From NCBI GenBank assembly GCA_001769855.1, contig MEPP01000004.1:1-64000 (forward strand): a stretch of 64,000 nt of DNA. Reading direction: 5' to 3'. The stretch is from Bdellovibrionales bacterium GWA2_49_15 (GTDB lineage Bacteria > Bdellovibrionota > Bacteriovoracia > Bacteriovoracales > Bacteriovoracaceae). A model generated the notes under the pieces. That model had not been told where the DNA came from. It worked only from the letters and a program-made list of their open reading frames with translations, and did not search any database. Shown piece after piece: positions 29,363 through 41,238 of this stretch; position 1 is the stretch's first letter, and each line of letters begins with the position of its first letter. The position numbers and the translations under genes were made by a program.

Positions 29363-30652
29363 ATGAAGATTTTATTAGTGCATACACAGCACGCCATTCA
29401 GCGTTTTGGTACAGGGATGTATCAGAAATATCTTCGCTACGCTCCTTTGACCATGCCAACTCTGGCCGCGCTTGTTCCAGCGGAACTGCATGCCGAGGTC
29501 CGGGTCATAGATGAGATGGTGGAAGAGGTGGACCTGAATTGGAACCCCGATCTTGTGGGTATCACGGCCATCTCAAGCGCCTCGCCTCGCGCCTATGAAA
29601 TTGCCCGACACTTTAAAAATAAAGGTGCCACGATTGTCATGGGCGGGGTGCATGCCACTCTCATGACCGAAGAGGCCCTTGAGCATGTGGACGTGGTGGT
29701 CAAGGGGTATGCCGAAGAGGTTTGGCCTCAGATTTTGCATGATTTTAAAAATGGTTGCTTAAAGCGTGTCTACGAGATGCGCGAGTACAACTCAGCGCTG
29801 TCTGTTTCACCCGCTCGCCAATTCATCCGACGCTCGCGTTATATTGCCTGTAATACCGTCGAGATGAGCTTGGGCTGCAATCGCAAATGTGATTTCTGCG
29901 TGGCCCATCGCTTTCATCAAAAATTTCATGCCAAGGACGTGGCCCAGGTGATCCAGGAAATCAAGGCCATGCCTGGGAAGATGGTGACCTTTCTTGATCC
30001 TAATGTGGCCGGCGATGCCCAATACGCCAGGGAGTTTTTCACAGAGTTTAAGAAACTAAAAAAGATGTGGGTCGGCTGTGTCACGATCGATATTATCAAT
30101 CGGCCTGAGTTAATGGACCTCATGGTGGAAAGCGGGGCCAAGGGGTTCCTGATCGGCTTCGAATCATTAGATCAGGAGGCCCTGGATGCGGCCAACAAAG
30201 GCTTTAGCCGTGTCAACGATTACCAGAAGGCCATTAAGGAATTCCATCGACGAGGTATCGTTGTGCAGGGGAGTTTTGTTTTTGGCTTTGATACAGATGA
30301 TCTTAACACCTGCCAAAATACCTTGGATTTTGTGATCAAGGCCAAAATTGATTTACCGCAATTTACAATCTACACGCCCTTTCCAGGCACAGAGGCCTTT
30401 TTGCGCCTGGAAAAAGAAGGCCGAATTTTGACCCGCGACTGGTCTCGCTACAATGGGCACGAGGTTGTCTTTATGCCCAAAAATATGACGCCTGAGCAGC
30501 TTAAAGCGGGCGTGGATAATGTATGGAAAACCACTTATAGTTACAGCTCAATTTTAAAACGATTATCTGACCCGCCCTATCTCATTAAGCCAATAATCTT
30601 CCTTTCAAACTTGAACTTCCGTTGGTTCATGAAACGCGTGCATGCTCAGTGA
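29363..30652 (+). CDS. B12-binding-type radical SAM protein (copy 1)
   Basis: A 429-residue protein. Residues 1-140 resemble the cobalamin-binding Rossmann domain (DLVGITAISS, VMGGVHATL). This is followed by a radical SAM core with the [4Fe-4S] motif CNRKCDFC (Cys172, 176, 179) and a GFESLD segment. The family (BchE/HpnJ-like class) uses SAM radicals and often methylcobalamin to methylate or rearrange unactivated carbons. It follows the rpsA terminator and has no clear ribosome binding site; TAAGAT at 29351-29356 may be a -10 box giving a nearly leaderless mRNA. The 3' end overlaps the convergent GH3-like gene by 26 nt. The substrate is unknown. Confidence 0.88.
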   Translation: MKILLVHTQHAIQRFGTGMYQKYLRYAPLTMPTLAALVPAELHAEVRVIDEMVEEVDLNWNPDLVGITAISSASPRAYEIARHFKNKGATIVMGGVHATLMTEEALEHVDVVVKGYAEEVWPQILHDFKNGCLKRVYEMREYNSALSVSPARQFIRRSRYIACNTVEMSLGCNRKCDFCVAHRFHQKFHAKDVAQVIQEIKAMPGKMVTFLDPNVAGDAQYAREFFTEFKKLKKMWVGCVTIDIINRPELMDLMVESGAKGFLIGFESLDQEALDAANKGFSRVNDYQKAIKEFHRRGIVVQGSFVFGFDTDDLNTCQNTLDFVIKAKIDLPQFTIYTPFPGTEAFLRLEKEGRILTRDWSRYNGHEVVFMPKNMTPEQLKAGVDNVWKTTYSYSSILKRLSDPPYLIKPIIFLSNLNFRWFMKRVHAQ

Positions 30653-32201
30653 ATAGCTGGGCCCAGTTTAAGCGTTTATCGAGAATATTATGCTTGATCG
30701 TGCCCGCGCGCAGGCCACTTTTCTCCAGCGAGGAAAGATAAAAGGAAAGCGCATTTTTGACTGAGCGTATCTGGACCTGTCCTAACTGTCCAAGCTGTCG
30801 AGCGTAATCGTAAGGATGACCCCGGCGCAATTCCAGGTCGAAATTTTTGCTCAATACTTCAATTTGACTTGCTGTCATGGCGGCCTCTAGAAATAAAAGA
30901 TAAAAAGGTGTTTCGCCCGAAGAGAGAGAAGGGGCCATTAAGGCGAATTCGTATGAAAGATTCATTGCTTGTGTGACTCGGCGAAGTGCGGTTTCTACTT
31001 GTATGGGATTCAGCTTCTCTCCGCATAAATCACTGGTTGAATCAATCTTGCCTTCGAAGCGGATAATAGGTGTTGAGTGATAATATCCAAGGCACTGAAC
31101 TGAATCTTTAAGATTATAACGATAGAGTCCTCCTGAGGTTGTGAGGAGAGGACTATAATGTCCGCCGACTTCGAGTTCGAAGGCCTGGCGGGGTTGCGAG
31201 TCAGGATTTTCCAGATCAATAAACTCGAGGAAATGTCCCCCGACCGCGAGCACAGGGCCGTCGATCCCCGAGAGGGGGATGGAGATGATACCCTCGACGG
31301 AGAGAAGTCCCTTGCTTTGAATGGTAATTTCAGGAAACCACTGTCGGAGTCTGGGAATAAATAGCGCCGACGAGGCATCCGTCCAACAGGAAATTAATTT
31401 AAGCCTGGGCCAGAACTGCGAGAGATTGCCAGGGCAGAATCTGGCAGAGGTTGGAATCAAGCGGTGCGCTTCTCTTTCGATATATTCCAAAATGAGAAGA
31501 AGAAAGGTGGGGCTCCAGACTGAGATCATTCCAAGATCTTTACAGGCCAGGAGTAACTTTGCCGTTTCAAAACGCCAACGTTCAATATCCTTACATTCCC
31601 CAATCTCCCTTGAGGAAAGCATGAACTCATTTAAGACGATTCTGGTTAAAGGGCCAAAATATTCCAGGTCGTTATCAATACCGATGGAGATTCCCCCCGA
31701 AGTGACGCGAGTGGTGCGTTGAATGGGTGAGATGGCCCAGTAGCTTCTTGTTCCTTTAAGCTCAGGGTTCGATTGGTGGAGATCGAAAAGCCAAGGATCA
31801 ATTGCGGAAGAAAATTCTTGTAACAGACCTTTTGTGTAGGGAATTAGCTTTTCCGGGCCAGAGGAGCCGCCCGAGAGTTCCATGAGTTTGATATTTTCAG
31901 CGCATAAAATATTTTTCTCACCGGCGGCACAAGACTGGATGTGTTTTTCAATGGCATCGTAATCAACAATCGGGACCTGGTCTCTGTAATTTTTTACACA
32001 GGAGATCGAGGCAAAATTACATTGCCTCCCATACTGAGTATTTTGGTTTGCTTTTAAGATGGCCTTGAGTCGGTTTTCTTGAATGATCTTGGGATGCCGA
32101 ACGGCAAACTCAAACTGCCTATAGCGACTCTTTAAACTCTGAAGATAAAGCTTCTGGATACCGGAGCGAAAGATGTATCTTGGTGATAAATTAATTATCA
32201 T
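30627..32201 (-). CDS. GH3-family acyl-adenylating enzyme
   Basis: A 524-residue member of the GH3 branch of the ANL superfamily. The ATP-binding loop appears as SGGSSGPEKLIP (residues 110-121). Later family segments include SVEGIISIPL, GGLYRYNLKD and IRFEGKIDSTSDLCGEKL, the last matching the GH3 hinge. Plant GH3 enzymes adenylate a carboxylate and join it to an amino acid; bacterial members are poorly characterised. It lies on the opposite strand inside the radical SAM cluster and is divergent from copy 2 across only 53 bp. A role in activating an acyl product of that cluster is inference. Confidence 0.85.
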   Translation of the reverse strand: MIINLSPRYIFRSGIQKLYLQSLKSRYRQFEFAVRHPKIIQENRLKAILKANQNTQYGRQCNFASISCVKNYRDQVPIVDYDAIEKHIQSCAAGEKNILCAENIKLMELSGGSSGPEKLIPYTKGLLQEFSSAIDPWLFDLHQSNPELKGTRSYWAISPIQRTTRVTSGGISIGIDNDLEYFGPLTRIVLNEFMLSSREIGECKDIERWRFETAKLLLACKDLGMISVWSPTFLLLILEYIEREAHRLIPTSARFCPGNLSQFWPRLKLISCWTDASSALFIPRLRQWFPEITIQSKGLLSVEGIISIPLSGIDGPVLAVGGHFLEFIDLENPDSQPRQAFELEVGGHYSPLLTTSGGLYRYNLKDSVQCLGYYHSTPIIRFEGKIDSTSDLCGEKLNPIQVETALRRVTQAMNLSYEFALMAPSLSSGETPFYLLFLEAAMTASQIEVLSKNFDLELRRGHPYDYARQLGQLGQVQIRSVKNALSFYLSSLEKSGLRAGTIKHNILDKRLNWAQLFTEHARVS

Positions 32202-32254
32202 GTTTTGCCTAATTGCGACTAGAATTTAATTATAAGCGATTTTAAAGAAATATT

Positions 32255-33616
32255 ATGGCCAATTCTTTTCGACTTACTTTGATTCATCCCTCCATCGGAC
32301 GGCGTCAGGGGCAGAGTTATGTTCGTCTTTGGCAGATGGAGCCACTGCCGCCGGCCGTGATTGCAGCGCTCACGCCGAAAGATGTGCAAATTGAATTTTA
32401 TGATGATCGCATTGCTCCCATTCCCTTCGATCGACCGACGGATTTGGTGGCGCTCTCGATTGAAACATATACCGCAAAACGCGCCTATCAGATTGCCAGT
32501 GAATATCGACGCCGTGGCATTCCTGTTGTCATGGGGGGATTTCACGCCGCCTTATGTCCGGACGAAGTCGCGCAATATGCGGAGACCGTGGTCGTTGGTG
32601 AGGCGGAAGACATCTGGGAAACGGTCATTGCAGACTATCGCAACGGCACGCCCAAGAAGTTCTATACCGCGCCCGCCCGCCCGGAGCTGCGAAAGTCGAC
32701 ACCTGATCGCTCGATCTTTCGCGATAAAAAATATCTTGGCGTCCAGCTCGTCGAGGCCAGCCGCGGCTGCAGCCTGCGCTGTGAGTTCTGTGCCATCCAG
32801 ACAGTGTATAAGCGCTCACAAAATTTTCGCCCCATGGATCAAATCCTGGAGGAAGTTAAGTCCTTGCGTGAAAAGTCGGACTTCTTTTTCTTCGTTGATG
32901 ACAACATCGTAACGAACCCGGGAAAAGCCAAAGAGTTTTTTCGAGAATTGGCTTCTCTCAAAATCAAATGGGTCAGTCAGGCCACGATTAGTGCCGCTAA
33001 GGATGAGGAACTTCTCCAATTGATGCAGCAAAGTGGCTGCCAGGGAGTCTTAATTGGCTTTGAAAGTCTGAAGGCAGAAAATCTCCTTCTGATGGACAAA
33101 TCGGTCAACACCTTAGGTATTGATTACGAAGACGCCATGAAGAAATTTCAACGCTACAAGATTCGTATCTATGGAACTTTTGTTTTTGGTTACGACCATG
33201 ACGTGGTCCAGTCCTTTCAAGAGTCAGTGGAATTCGCAACCCGACACGCTTTTTTTCTCACAGGGTTTAATCATCTCACTCCCTTTCCGGGGACCGCGCT
33301 CTATCAACGTTTGGAGCAGGAGAAGCGCTTAATTTATGATAAATGGTGGCTTGATGATACCTATAGCTACAATCTTCTGCCCTTTCGCCCGACGTTAATG
33401 TCTGCCGAAGAGGTGCACGAACAATGCATCAAGGCGCGACGATCTTTCTACTCGTACGGCAACATCATGAAAAGGTTGATTCACCCGGTGAATCAGGGCT
33501 TTCGCAAGCCATTTTTACTGATGAATCTTATGCATCACAAAGAATTGGGGAAGCGAGATCGTTATCCCTTGGGCGATGAGAACTGGAAGGGGACTATCTT
33601 ACAGGCCACCCGTTAA
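32255..33616 (+). CDS. B12-binding-type radical SAM protein (copy 2)
   Basis: A 453-residue protein with the same layout as its two neighbours: an N-terminal B12-binding-like domain (LVALSIETYTAKRAYQIA, VMGGFHAAL), then a radical SAM core with CSLRCEFC (Cys172, 176, 179) and GFESLKAENL. The cluster motif sits at exactly the same residue numbers as in copy 1. The C-terminus is longer. The tandem-GNAT gene starts one base after the stop, so the two are an operon. Function is unknown beyond the family. Confidence 0.88.
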   Translation: MANSFRLTLIHPSIGRRQGQSYVRLWQMEPLPPAVIAALTPKDVQIEFYDDRIAPIPFDRPTDLVALSIETYTAKRAYQIASEYRRRGIPVVMGGFHAALCPDEVAQYAETVVVGEAEDIWETVIADYRNGTPKKFYTAPARPELRKSTPDRSIFRDKKYLGVQLVEASRGCSLRCEFCAIQTVYKRSQNFRPMDQILEEVKSLREKSDFFFFVDDNIVTNPGKAKEFFRELASLKIKWVSQATISAAKDEELLQLMQQSGCQGVLIGFESLKAENLLLMDKSVNTLGIDYEDAMKKFQRYKIRIYGTFVFGYDHDVVQSFQESVEFATRHAFFLTGFNHLTPFPGTALYQRLEQEKRLIYDKWWLDDTYSYNLLPFRPTLMSAEEVHEQCIKARRSFYSYGNIMKRLIHPVNQGFRKPFLLMNLMHHKELGKRDRYPLGDENWKGTILQATR

Positions 33617-33617
33617 G

Positions 33618-34757
33618 ATGAGCTCAACTTATTTCAACTTAGCAACAGAATCGGACAACGAAGAGCTCCTTCGTTTTCTTCATAATAATCCCATGCCTGG
33701 ACGTGTCTCAGTGGCGCTGGAAAGAAATCCAAATTTCTTTTTTGGCGCGGGGATAGAAGGTGAGACCCATCAAACCTTAGTCGCCAGGACGACAGACCAA
33801 AACCGCATCATGGCCGTGGGGAGTCGGTCCGTTCGCATGATGTGGGTTGATGGGCAGCAGAGGAGCATTGGATATTTGGGCCAGCTCAGAATCGACCATG
33901 AATTTCGAAGCCGTGGGAAATTCATTATTCATGGTTATCAGCATATGCATGAGCTTCACGATAATATGCAGAAAACTGAAAGCCGTGCCGATTTCTATAT
34001 CAGCACCATTGTCTCGGACAACAAAACGGCCATGCGCATTTTAGGCAATAACGTAAAAGGGATGCCCAAGTATCGTCGCTATGGTGAACTTTCTTCCTTC
34101 TTGCTCCCGATTGGACCGCGCCTTTCTTCATGCTCGACAACAGGGAGGGTGAATATCCGCCAGGCGGTGCAAGCGGATCTCACTTCAATCCTGGAATGTC
34201 TCCAGCGCAACAATCAACGTTTTCAATTCGCGCCGGTATGGACAAGGGAAAATTTCAGCAACCCGGTTAGAACCCATGGACTCAGGGTTGAAGATTTTAT
34301 CCTTGCGGAAAAAGCACCGGGAGAGATTTGCGGTGTGATGGCGTTATGGGATCAGACGGCCTTCAAACAGACAGTCATTTGTGGATACTCAAACGTCATG
34401 GATGGGATGGCCAAAATATCAAGAAAACTGGGAGAGTTATTTCACACACCCTCGCTACCCAAAGTGGGGGGGGCGATTCCTTTTGCCTTTGTCTCTCATG
34501 TGGCGGTAGATCAGGATAATCAGGAGGTCTTTTTACAGCTACTCTCACGCATGAGGCAGATCGCCCGTTTGCGAGAAATCAGTTTCTTAACCTTAGGGTT
34601 TGCCGACAAGCACCCTTTCAACTTGGCCATAAGGAACCTGCTTCTGAAAGTTGAATATCGCAGCACTATTTTTACGGTCTGCTGGGAAGATGGAGCGCAA
34701 GCTGTCGCTGGCATTGATTCTCAAAGAATCCCGCATCTTGAACTCGCTATTCTCTAA
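33618..34757 (+). CDS. Tandem GNAT-fold acyltransferase-like protein
   Basis: A 379-residue protein. The first half (about residues 1-175) has a GNAT-like pattern, with GYLGQLRIDHEFRSRG in the position of the acetyl-CoA pyrophosphate loop. The second half (about 180-370) looks like another GNAT unit, with FVSHVAVDQDNQEVF and a C-terminal beta-alpha module, but its acyl-CoA loop is degenerate. It could transfer an acyl group to a product of the radical SAM enzymes. ATG 33618 is one base after the upstream stop. No substrate can be inferred. Confidence 0.65.
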   Translation: MSSTYFNLATESDNEELLRFLHNNPMPGRVSVALERNPNFFFGAGIEGETHQTLVARTTDQNRIMAVGSRSVRMMWVDGQQRSIGYLGQLRIDHEFRSRGKFIIHGYQHMHELHDNMQKTESRADFYISTIVSDNKTAMRILGNNVKGMPKYRRYGELSSFLLPIGPRLSSCSTTGRVNIRQAVQADLTSILECLQRNNQRFQFAPVWTRENFSNPVRTHGLRVEDFILAEKAPGEICGVMALWDQTAFKQTVICGYSNVMDGMAKISRKLGELFHTPSLPKVGGAIPFAFVSHVAVDQDNQEVFLQLLSRMRQIARLREISFLTLGFADKHPFNLAIRNLLLKVEYRSTIFTVCWEDGAQAVAGIDSQRIPHLELAIL

Positions 34758-34763
34758 TACAAT

Positions 34764-36167
34764 TTATTGGGTGATATTAAGATCTGGGCCGATCAGGGGA
34801 ACATTGGCGCTCTGATTTGCCAAAAAAGCGTCGCGACCATGAACACGCATCTCAAAGCCGGGTTTGGTGAAGAGGCGTTTTGAAAATAAATTATAGGTGA
34901 GGTTCCCCATGAAGGTGATGGGAAATTTACGACCGCTACTTTTCGTTCGTTCCCATATTTTAGAAATTTTGAAGGTCTCGCGATAGGCCCAGCGAAAACC
35001 TTCGTAGAGCTCAGTGGCTGACATATTTTTGGGTTGATACACGACATGCATGGTATTGTAGTCGGCCCAGTTATAACTTAAAATTCGATTTTCCTCTGCC
35101 AGTCTTTTGAAGAGGCGCGTTCCCGGGTAAGGGGTATAAATTGAATAGCGCGGAATATCGATTTTAAGCTCTTGCACGCGTTGGACAGTTTTTGCAAAGA
35201 CATCTTTATCATCATGGTCGAAGCCAAAGACAAAGCATCCTTGAACGACAATATTCGCTTTGTGCAGAATACGCATAACCTCATGGTAGCGTTCTGTTGA
35301 GTTAAAGCGTTTGCCGATTTTGTCCAAGGCGTTTTGATTCACTGACTCAAAACCCAGCAGTAAATATTCGCAGCCACTTTTCACCATGAGATCAAACAGT
35401 TCCGGCTCATCGACCACTTGGGTGGTGGCGAGCCCCCCCCAGCTTTTTTTAAGTGGAATCAGCGCCTTAAAAAGTTCTTTAGCATACTCCACATCGTCAA
35501 CCGGACTCACGTCATTCAGGACAAAACGTTTAGCGGGAATGGTTTTAATATCACGGATAACATCGGCCACAGGCCTTCGGGTTAATTTGTTCCAATAGGT
35601 GGGCACGGAGCAGAAATCGCAGGCATGCATACATCCACGCGTGGCCTGTACGGTGTAAGGTACCATATAGCCGCTTTTCCGTTGAAGATCATAGCGCGGA
35701 GGAGGTGTCGTGGTTCGGGTATAGGGGCCTTGAGAAAGTATTTCGCGATATTCAGGTTGTAAATTTCCCAGCTTGAAATCGTTCATAAGTCTCGGCCATG
35801 TTTCGTCCGCCATACCAAAGACCAGGGTATCGGCAAAACGTCGGGCCTCATTGGGACAAAGAGTGACATGGATGCCACCTAAAACGACTGGAATGCCACG
35901 GCGGCGAAAATGATCGGCCAGGGCGTAGGCCCTCTGAGAGGTTCCCGTCATGACGCTAATTCCAACCAGATCGGCGGTTGCATCTAGGGGAACGGTATCA
36001 ATGCTCTCGTCAACCAGCCGATACTCAATCTCCGGGTCGTTCCCGGTGAGGGCGGCAAGAGTTGTAAGGGTGATAGGAGCTTCTCGCGCTGATCGGACGA
36101 AACTCCCGAAACGCAATTTATGCATGTTCGCATCAGGCATGACGAGCAAGACTTTTTTAACTTTCAT
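34764..36167 (-). CDS. B12-binding-type radical SAM protein (copy 3)
   Basis: A 467-residue protein with a B12-binding-like domain (LVGISVMTGTSQRAYALA, VLGGIHVTL) and a radical SAM core with CMHACDFC (Cys179, 183, 186) and LLGFESVNQNAL. It is related to copies 1 and 2 and converges on the GNAT gene with a 6-bp gap. The C-terminal part, including YTPYPGTRLFKRL, is nearly the same pattern as YTPFPGTEAFLRL in copy 1. It is transcribed towards the cluster. Substrate unknown. Confidence 0.88.
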   Translation of the reverse strand: MKVKKVLLVMPDANMHKLRFGSFVRSAREAPITLTTLAALTGNDPEIEYRLVDESIDTVPLDATADLVGISVMTGTSQRAYALADHFRRRGIPVVLGGIHVTLCPNEARRFADTLVFGMADETWPRLMNDFKLGNLQPEYREILSQGPYTRTTTPPPRYDLQRKSGYMVPYTVQATRGCMHACDFCSVPTYWNKLTRRPVADVIRDIKTIPAKRFVLNDVSPVDDVEYAKELFKALIPLKKSWGGLATTQVVDEPELFDLMVKSGCEYLLLGFESVNQNALDKIGKRFNSTERYHEVMRILHKANIVVQGCFVFGFDHDDKDVFAKTVQRVQELKIDIPRYSIYTPYPGTRLFKRLAEENRILSYNWADYNTMHVVYQPKNMSATELYEGFRWAYRETFKISKIWERTKSSGRKFPITFMGNLTYNLFSKRLFTKPGFEMRVHGRDAFLANQSANVPLIGPDLNITQ

Positions 36168-38536: not shown

Positions 38537-40477
38537 CTATTTAATCTCACTGCGAACAGGCTTGATAGCAACTTCTTCCATGAGGTTCCCTGTAGACCCG
38601 GAAAGCAATTCTGGAAATTGAAATTCTTCAGGAAAACACTGGTCATAGCTGAGGGCCTTGGCTTCCTGTCCATCCTTATCAATCTCAACAACAGTCACAA
38701 TTCTTTTCCATTTTTTCAGATCAGGGCGCACGAGATGGGTCATCCAGAAGAGTTTTTTACCGGCAAAGGTCCGTCGCGCCCTATTGGCTTCGGCTTGCTC
38801 TCGAATGGCGCGGCGATGGAAACTCACAATAACCTCATCGTCCACTTCAGGCAGAACATGGAACTCGTTAGGATCGCAATGGTTCCAATCTTGGTTCGAA
38901 TCACTTTTCGGCTGCACGATTTGAATTCTCGAACCGAGAGCTATGTTTATTTCTGTCTCAAGATAGGAGCGCCGCGGTTGTTCGGTGACGATCAGACCTT
39001 CGACATCCATCGCAAGCGCCTCTTTGTCCTCATCTTTCTTCGTCATGGAGACGTTCTGCAAAATGATGGACCGGCTTCCGCCTTCTGTTTCTGTATTGGA
39101 GCTGGACTTCAAAGAAAAATTCTTGGGAGTGCTGTCTGATCGTGATGGAACCAGACAGGTCTTGAATTCTTTAACAATGTCATTGGTCAGGGACGATCGA
39201 TTGGAGCTTAGCCGTAAAGGCTGATTCCACACTTCACTGTTATGCGTCCTTCCGTGGGCCTTGCTCGACTGCATGATACCTCCAATCCTAAGCTTCAGGC
39301 CGAGAACATTTCCTCCGGGAACAACCCCTCCGGTTGCCTTGCAGCCCTCAATCTGAACCTCAGTTTTTGTCGCCCCATTGGCAAGGGAATCTTTGGCAGA
39401 TGGTGGTAGCAATTGCGCGATCAGGTAATCAGGATTATCGCTTAAAAAATTAATAAGATCTTTTTTGTGGGGGAGGTCGCCTTGGTTGCAAACTTGAATA
39501 CCTTCCTCGAAAGGGCCAGCCTCTAATAAGCCACGACGGACCCCCTGCATGGCCTGCTCATCCATGGTGGTAATCGCTTGCGCGATAATGGCCTGTTTCC
39601 TTTTGTCATCCCATCCGCGTACTTTCGCCACACCTTTGGCAAAGTTACCTAGCTTGGAAGCAAAAGATTTTTTGACCGGCCCTTTTTGGGCGTCACGAAT
39701 GAGGTCAAGTGCCTGAGCCATTCTTATGATTTTGGCCAAGATAATTCCCTCGTATCCAATAAAGGTCGCAGTTCCGATGCCAAGCCCGATCCACCCGGCC
39801 ACAGGGGCGATCGTGGCAAAGGGCAATTTGTAGACTTCTCGACCGACGAGATTGGCCAACCACAGGGGAAATTGCGGACCAAGAGACATGGCATAGAGAC
39901 CGGCGGCCAGAGTTGCGCTCGTGCCTGTCAGCGCACCCGTGATCGTGGGGCCGAAGATGCTCTTTTTCGCTAATTTTCGAATGCGTTTTTCATAGTCGGC
40001 TTGGCAACTTGTGACGCGAGCTTGGGTATGAATTTGGGCCACAGACTGCGCTAGGGCATTGTTGGCGTTTTTAATCTTGGCCAATTTGACATTGACGGCA
40101 TTGAGACCCTTTTTACCTTCTACGGCGAGAATGGCGGTCTCAAAAAAGCTCCGTCCTGCTCTGCTAAAATTGTTTCCGCTTGTTCGCGCAGCGTAATCTA
40201 AATTTCCGTACAATTGAGTAAGTTGCTTCGCCAGATCGTTGTAACTGCCTTTGTAATTGTCTTTGCTGAGTTGTTGTTGCAAATCATCCACGGCCTTTGT
40301 GGTTTCAAGCCAAAGGGCATCTTTATGGGCCGGCTCGGTCGTTGGCAGGGGATGGGAGAGATAGCAAAAGCTTTGATCATCCGGATATGAGACCAGTATC
40401 TCATTGGGGTTTTTACAGAAGCCGGCCAGGGCACTTGGGAGAGTTATAAAGAATGCCAGAATCAACAAGAGCTTCAT
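38537..40477 (-). CDS. Large secreted/membrane protein of unknown function
   Basis: Not recognised. The 646-residue product has a signal peptide (about residues 1-18, ending SALAGF). It then has a helical region and a membrane hairpin of two long hydrophobic segments (about residues 175-255), followed by a polar C-terminal domain of about 380 residues. The hairpin region, with a flanking Cys on each side and the pattern YEGIILAKIIR...LDLI, aligns by eye with the small protein at 43033-43695 (YETVTIVKLSR...LNLI), so the two are probably paralogous in this part. The C-terminal domain matches nothing I know. Confidence 0.7.
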   Translation of the reverse strand: MKLLLILAFFITLPSALAGFCKNPNEILVSYPDDQSFCYLSHPLPTTEPAHKDALWLETTKAVDDLQQQLSKDNYKGSYNDLAKQLTQLYGNLDYAARTSGNNFSRAGRSFFETAILAVEGKKGLNAVNVKLAKIKNANNALAQSVAQIHTQARVTSCQADYEKRIRKLAKKSIFGPTITGALTGTSATLAAGLYAMSLGPQFPLWLANLVGREVYKLPFATIAPVAGWIGLGIGTATFIGYEGIILAKIIRMAQALDLIRDAQKGPVKKSFASKLGNFAKGVAKVRGWDDKRKQAIIAQAITTMDEQAMQGVRRGLLEAGPFEEGIQVCNQGDLPHKKDLINFLSDNPDYLIAQLLPPSAKDSLANGATKTEVQIEGCKATGGVVPGGNVLGLKLRIGGIMQSSKAHGRTHNSEVWNQPLRLSSNRSSLTNDIVKEFKTCLVPSRSDSTPKNFSLKSSSNTETEGGSRSIILQNVSMTKKDEDKEALAMDVEGLIVTEQPRRSYLETEINIALGSRIQIVQPKSDSNQDWNHCDPNEFHVLPEVDDEVIVSFHRRAIREQAEANRARRTFAGKKLFWMTHLVRPDLKKWKRIVTVVEIDKDGQEAKALSYDQCFPEEFQFPELLSGSTGNLMEEVAIKPVRSEIK

Positions 40478-40557
40478 ATTGGTACCCCTCTGAGAACGTT
40501 GTCAAAGCGTTGGCCTTGACTAACATCCTAGGAGTGCTATGGCAATGAGTCGGGGTA

Positions 40558-41148
40558 TCATTTTGCGATCAAGACCCTCTGAAAAGCGGTCAAGGCCATC
40601 TCAAATTTTTTCTTGTTCAAACGGACAGTTTTGTCCCTGGATTCCACCGCCTGTCGCTGAAAGCGTTCAAGACGGTCATTTAAATTTCTGATACGCGCAT
40701 TTTCAATACTCTCACCCATATCATTGATCGCGATCGCGATGGCCACAGGGATGATCAGGGGGGGGAAAAAGCACGCTAAAATTAATAAAAGGATATCTCC
40801 ATTATCATGATGGGGACGGAAGTAATAAGTGGCGTAGTTCATTCGTTCCTGAGCGCTCTTCCAGTCGAGCACACCGAGGTCTTCACCGAGGAGTTGCAGT
40901 GAATAGTTCTTTTTCGCCTCTTTCCTGATCAGATAAAAAGCATAATCTTTGCAATCTGCCATCGTCGTCATGACTTCATCTTCGCAAAGCACGCGAATTT
41001 GGCGGTTGGCCAATCGTTGTTTGAGGACCCCGCCTCTGGTTCTGAGTTCGAGTTCACCCTTTGATAAGTTATCTAGGGTGGCGGATTGGGTTTGAAGAGA
41101 GACACAGGCGATTAAAAATAAGGCCAGCATCTGCTTGAAATTTCTCAT
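40558..41148 (-). CDS. Small exported protein of unknown function
   Basis: Not recognised. With ATG 41148 the product is 196 residues with a signal peptide ending near QTQSA. It has a short Cys pair (LCEDEV...ADCKDY), one strongly hydrophobic helix (about residues 120-142) and a basic, coiled-coil C-terminus. It lies between the 646-residue protein and metG on the minus strand. The general plan (signal peptide, Cys pair, membrane segment, charged tail) resembles the neighbours, but I see no clear sequence match. Confidence 0.65.
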   Translation of the reverse strand: MRNFKQMLALFLIACVSLQTQSATLDNLSKGELELRTRGGVLKQRLANRQIRVLCEDEVMTTMADCKDYAFYLIRKEAKKNYSLQLLGEDLGVLDWKSAQERMNYATYYFRPHHDNGDILLLILACFFPPLIIPVAIAIAINDMGESIENARIRNLNDRLERFQRQAVESRDKTVRLNKKKFEMALTAFQRVLIAK

Positions 41149-41238
41149 AAAGTACCTGCGGTTAAAAGTTTGTCGCAGCAATAGATCAAATCCCACGCAG
41201 CTTCAAGGGAAATTGTAAATACTACACGTCTTTTCAAG

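Follow-up and report, generated by a model that had tools for sequence, protein, structure and literature searches.

What could three B12-type radical SAM proteins, a GH3 ligase and a tandem GNAT acyltransferase be making together in a bacterium of the family Bacteriovoracaceae? The question is raised by a block of five intact open reading frames that occupies 6.8 kb (29363-36167) of the 64,000-nucleotide stretch of the Bdellovibrionales bacterium GWA2_49_15 genome analyzed here (the window throughout). An earlier note, made from the sequence alone, saw in this block a candidate for a pathway not yet described, by which an unusual lipid or small molecule would be built and conjugated, a claim that would have fallen had the neighbourhood not been conserved in relatives or had the genes been assignable to separate known pathways. 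Neither is the case: a sister genome preserves the block in synteny, the gene set is found in many phyla, and none of the proteins approaches the equivalog cut-off of any curated functional family. The notion of an undescribed pathway is thus supported, whereas the lipid nature of its product remains an inference.

The five-gene block

The genes are packed and partly overlapping, just as the earlier note had described them. RS1 (29363..30652, plus strand, 429 aa) and the GH3 gene (30627..32201, minus strand, 524 aa) converge and overlap by 26 bp; GH3 and RS2 (32255..33616, plus strand, 453 aa) diverge across 53 bp (32202..32254) that presumably accommodate both promoters, an inference from geometry only; then follow GNAT1 (33618..34757, plus strand, 379 aa) and RS3 (34764..36167, minus strand, 467 aa). 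Given the strand order + - + + -, the block is not one operon. For GNAT1, the start given in the ORF list (33576) probably lies too far upstream; judging from the orthologue in the sister genome, which begins at the equivalent of 33618, that position, 1 bp past the RS2 stop, would be the better choice. Elsewhere in the window, at 38537-41196, TauE-like and DJ-1/PfpI-like genes adjoin two proteins (646 and 212 aa) that have no meaningful Pfam match.

The two domains that define the B12-binding radical SAM superfamily, PF02310 (B12-binding) and PF04055 (radical SAM), both score above cut-off in RS1 and RS3, and the accompanying CX3CX2C motif is found in all three proteins (at residue 172 in RS1 and RS2 and residue 179 in RS3). 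The criteria of the superfamily are therefore met, with the reservation that RS2, in which PF04055 is above cut-off, falls marginally short for PF02310 (30.1 against 32.1 bits). No DxHxxG motif is present in the window radical SAM proteins, and the binding and use of cobalamin are inferred from the domain fold only. The description of the three as B12-type paralogues holds for their architecture, but they belong to two classes: in the radical SAM tree, the B12-type proteins of the clusters discussed below split into orthologous classes A, B, C and D, of which the window has class A (RS2) and two members of class B (RS1, which is 90% identical to its sister-genome counterpart, and RS3). The best NCBIfam matches of RS1-RS5 are BchE, HpnJ, PhpK and the ladderane-associated TIGR04072 group, with which the window proteins share the two-domain architecture; the gene neighbourhood of these families differs, however, and the equivalog cut-offs of BchE, HpnJ, HpnR, PhpK and TIGR04072 are not met by a wide margin (about 106 bits at best against 360-650).

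The assignment of the second gene to the acyl-adenylating GH3 family is secure, with PF03321, GH3_M and GH3_C all above cut-off, so that the domain criterion for acyl-acid amido synthetases (N-terminal, central and C-terminal domains) is met, and with recognizable nucleotide-binding motifs. Plant GH3 enzymes are the sole matches of the family profile in the PDB, and the window protein is the only PF03321 match in its own genome. Enzymes of this family form an acyl-AMP first and then an amide. By its domains and motifs, the window GH3 is a probable acid-amine ligase, for which ATP-dependent ligation is inferred without an assay.

GNAT1 has no Pfam match, but its AlphaFold model, built from an alignment of 48 relatives (pLDDT 94.8), finds its best structural matches in the tandem GNAT MAB_4324 and in N-myristoyltransferases. 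These alignments are nearly full-length (TM about 0.6), and the description of the protein as a tandem GNAT, with two GNAT folds in one chain, is right on the basis of this confident model. Although the fold is common to GNAT1 and these proteins over almost the entire length, the identity is only 11-13%, and the substrate of GNAT1 cannot be read from the fold.

The second locus and the closest relatives

All five genes of the block are present in the sister genome (G002) in the same order and on the same relative strands, and the neighbours on the S1/LpxK side are kept as well. The block proteins of the two genomes are 74-91% identical, and dN/dS is 0.02-0.14, a rough estimate with synonymous sites near saturation, in keeping with purifying selection on the genes.

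Part of the system could not have been seen from the window alone. The window lacks GNAT2, the class C and class D radical SAM proteins, an RND exporter and a conserved protein of ~500 aa. These lie elsewhere in the genome, on contig C11 (about 117.9-125.2 kb, equivalent to L152:5435-12694), where they form a second locus in the order class C, class D, GNAT2, ~500-aa protein, RND exporter; the sister genome has a second locus with the same order (L153), so the two-locus split is directly observed in both. When the window genome is searched with RS2, the five closest proteins are the three of the window together with the class C and class D proteins of the second locus. The whole set is contiguous in L102 and L106, which represent two further genera of Bdellovibrionales; it comprises GH3, GNAT1, GNAT2, the RND/MMPL exporter, the ~500-aa protein, four radical SAM proteins of the B12 type and one more radical SAM protein that lacks a B12 domain. 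Equally invisible from the window is the Rieske twin of the system: in other genera of the same family, GH3 stands beside Rieske oxygenases, membrane fatty acid hydroxylases or desaturase-like proteins instead.

A further genome of the same genus (G001, 83% complete; L154) retains the RND exporter and the ~500-aa protein, whereas GH3, GNAT2 and close radical SAM relatives were not found in this incomplete assembly; the two retained proteins may accordingly have a wider role.

In the GH3 tree, the window protein groups with that of the sister genome and a mixed set from Myxococcota and Oligoflexia, away from the other genera of its own family, a placement that suggests horizontal transfer. The GH3 proteins of one family (L102, L106, L020-L029 and the window) fall in several distant parts of this tree, which suggests that the pathway has been transferred repeatedly. 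A search of plasmids yielded only distant GH3 relatives.

A conserved core and two alternating modules

How far does this gene combination extend? A genome scan with the single GH3 sequence gave no matches; an alignment-based scan of one genome per species succeeded, yielding 548 relatives, of which the 80 most similar loci were analyzed, a sample necessarily biased by its selection for GH3 similarity to the window. The presence of each family was scored by six-frame profile search because longest-ORF calling is unreliable in high-GC loci; the clustering of neighbours, which contained spurious high-GC frames, was used only for leads that were then rechecked. The counts refer to those 57 loci in which the sequence flanking GH3 extends for 5 kb or more upstream and 2.5 kb or more downstream.

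The co-occurrence of GH3 with B12-type radical SAM and GNAT genes, which the earlier note had proposed to check, recurs across phyla. Of these loci, 53 contain GNAT2 and 45 contain GNAT1, and the gene set is observed in at least a dozen bacterial phyla. Around this core, two types of tailoring genes exclude each other: 23 loci contain B12-type radical SAM genes, 25 contain a Rieske oxygenase, none contains both and nine contain neither (Fisher p=6.5e-9, not corrected for the tree). Carriers of the radical SAM type include Bacillota, Planctomycetota, Chloroflexota, WOR-3, Wallbacteria and Thermodesulfobacteriota; those of the Rieske type include most Myxococcota, Gemmatimonadota, Cyanobacteriota, Verrucomicrobiota and Rokubacteria; and both types occur within Bdellovibrionota, Myxococcota, Planctomycetota, Pseudomonadota and Gemmatimonadota. 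By a quick method, the two labels change 7-8 times on the GH3 tree. A tree-corrected sign test finds only 3 independent pairs on supported branches, none of which goes the same way and most of which go the opposite way; with so few pairs, the test is underpowered and significance is out of reach.

Within the radical SAM type, classes A and B are found in nearly every cluster (contigs without one or the other mostly end on that side), and classes C and D form an optional pair, co-occurring in nine genomes. The GH3 cluster of a Pelobacter adjoins a radical SAM protein (L125:12835-14124) whose distant similarities are to TrsS and to Tes, the tetraether lipid synthase; relatives of this protein are found near L107, L132 and L134 as well.

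The Rieske type has companions of its own. A membrane protein that combines an NQR2/RnfD-like domain with FG-GAP repeats and, usually, an UnbV/ASPIC domain has relatives in 20 of the 25 Rieske loci and in none of the 23 radical SAM loci; relatives of a small membrane protein of L094 show a similar pattern (18/25 and 0/23). Fatty acid desaturases and hydroxylases are found near Rieske-type loci. The NQR2-type protein might supply electrons to the Rieske module, which is an inference. We know of no described function for the NQR2/RnfD-FG-GAP-UnbV/ASPIC fusions, examples of which are L020:12350-15160, L094:12759-15611 and related loci.

Two further arrangements deserve mention. In L028 (830-11097), GH3 and both GNATs occur with KAS III-like, AMP-ligase and short-chain dehydrogenase genes, without Rieske or radical SAM genes, possibly a third variant. 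The longer GH3 proteins (about 610-820 aa) of L031, L032, L033 and L034, from the same phylum, have recurrent neighbour families of their own (F12 and F15) and apparently represent another GH3 pathway.

Do the two modules perform the same job? Oxygen-dependent and oxygen-independent enzymes are known to alternate within one pathway, as in the pairs AcsF/BchE and HemF/HemN, and the present system is similar in that two unrelated enzyme types alternate on one core depending on the genome; it differs in that the pair consists of Rieske and B12-type radical SAM enzymes, and equivalence has not been shown. To our knowledge, no alternation of these two enzyme types has been described. The equivalence of their reactions, which we infer, is plausible but unproven because a single Rieske gene is set against at least two radical SAM genes (usually 2-4, with a range of two to five). 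The same imbalance is compatible with the view that a shared GH3/GNAT amide scaffold receives different decorations and that the exclusion of modules reflects the oxygen lifestyle of the host rather than equivalent reactions; the additional desaturases and hydroxylases at Rieske loci and the different electron partners of the two modules point the same way. We consider this view unlikely, albeit worth keeping in mind, given that exact mutual exclusion on one core, together with at least seven label changes on the GH3 tree, looks like substitution in a single slot. The generalization that Rieske and B12-type radical SAM sets replace each other functionally, having been swapped repeatedly across phyla on a fixed GH3-GNAT core producing undescribed amide lipids is one that we can offer only tentatively.

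The putative product

The scenario that we favour, with moderate confidence, is that the block is part of a two-locus GH3/GNAT pathway leading to an N-acylated, probably lipid-like amide, with radical SAM tailoring in the Rieske slot. Under this scenario, in which every reaction is inferred, GH3 would adenylate its carboxylic acid substrate, probably a fatty acid, and join the resulting acyl-AMP to an amine, as the chemistry of its family implies; GNAT2, encoded at the second locus, and the N-myristoyltransferase-like GNAT1 would, going by their folds, add further N-acyl groups; the radical SAM proteins of classes A and B, and optionally C and D, would modify unactivated carbons without oxygen, filling the position that is held elsewhere by the Rieske oxygenase with its own membrane partner; and the RND/MMPL-like protein of the second locus would export the product. 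Several points count against this scenario: a one-for-one replacement between Rieske and radical SAM genes is not evident, the exclusion does not reach significance with the few pairs available to the tree-corrected test, the 80 loci were selected by their GH3 similarity to the window, the window genes do not form one operon, the hints of a lipid are weak, and B12 use rests on a domain fold.

That the product is a lipid is suggested by weak similarities only, in sequence or predicted fold: the RND protein is weakly HpnN-like, the cluster Rieske protein weakly resembles 4beta-methylsterol monooxygenase, and to these may be added the fold of GNAT1 and the desaturase and hydroxylase neighbours. 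A hopanoid pathway is unlikely in the carriers tested, as no squalene-hopene cyclase was found in the window genome or in its three nearest carriers (the sister genome, G019 and G030); among 8 other carriers of the radical SAM type, a strong match to this enzyme was obtained only in a Pelobacter.

A biochemically characterized bacterial precedent is OlsH of Singulisphaera acidiphila, a GH3 protein that produces N-acyl-ornithine from fatty acids by ATP-dependent coupling and whose partner OlsI, an alpha/beta hydrolase, is encoded with it in an operon in planctomycetes (PMC12493201). A bacterial GH3 enzyme thus starts an amide lipid in that case, as we propose for the window protein, and OlsH is also the sole NCBIfam match of the latter. 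Could the window GH3 likewise make an ornithine lipid or another N-acyl amino acid, which the other genes then decorate? The match amounts to 52.9 bits against a cut-off of 620 (NF052613), so an OlsH-type ornithine lipid is rejected by the equivalog criterion; furthermore, the window-type GH3 is accompanied by GNATs and radical SAM or Rieske genes, and no OlsI-like hydrolase was identified among the recurrent neighbours, where OlsI was not searched for directly. Altogether, we regard such a pathway as improbable.

Hardly more can be said for a diffusible metabolite that is not a lipid, be it a signal, an antibiotic or a metal chelator assembled by GH3 and the GNATs. The fold of GNAT2 does resemble aminoglycoside acetyltransferases, and transport genes occur at two loci, in L104 for a siderophore-type ABC transporter (upstream) and in L020 for a TonB-dependent receptor (downstream), but neither recurs at other loci, and the RND and desaturase neighbours favour a hydrophobic product; a siderophore in particular is rejected, the transporter genes being confined to single loci. 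A role in anti-phage defence is rejected as well: PADLOC gives only a weak match of the radical SAM proteins to the candidate model PDC-M51A and none for GH3 or the GNATs. That unrelated genes have come together by chance, as the mixed strands and the lack of a single operon in the window might suggest, is barely credible for a combination that is conserved in many phyla, is syntenic in the sister genome with low dN/dS and has its remaining parts together at a second locus in two genomes.

Returning to the GH3/GNAT amide pathway, has it been described under another name? Myxococcus xanthus, which carries a Rieske-type locus (L135), makes homospermidine lipids, that is, N-modified polyamine lipids, through the hsl genes (PMC9548883), which may or may not include this locus; the open papers on that pathway name hslA-D and hslO-Q and mention no GH3 or Rieske protein. 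The pathway is apparently undescribed, in that no account of the present gene combination was found in the open-access literature; subscription journals were mostly outside the search, and a published description is not excluded.

If the prediction is correct, a natural product or membrane lipid has gone unrecognized in at least a dozen phyla, including the experimentally tractable myxobacteria. Rieske and B12-type radical SAM chemistry would then be seen to take turns within one pathway, as its oxygen-dependent and oxygen-independent enzyme sets, and identifying the product would reveal the reactions of several widespread, hitherto unassigned radical SAM groups in a single stroke.
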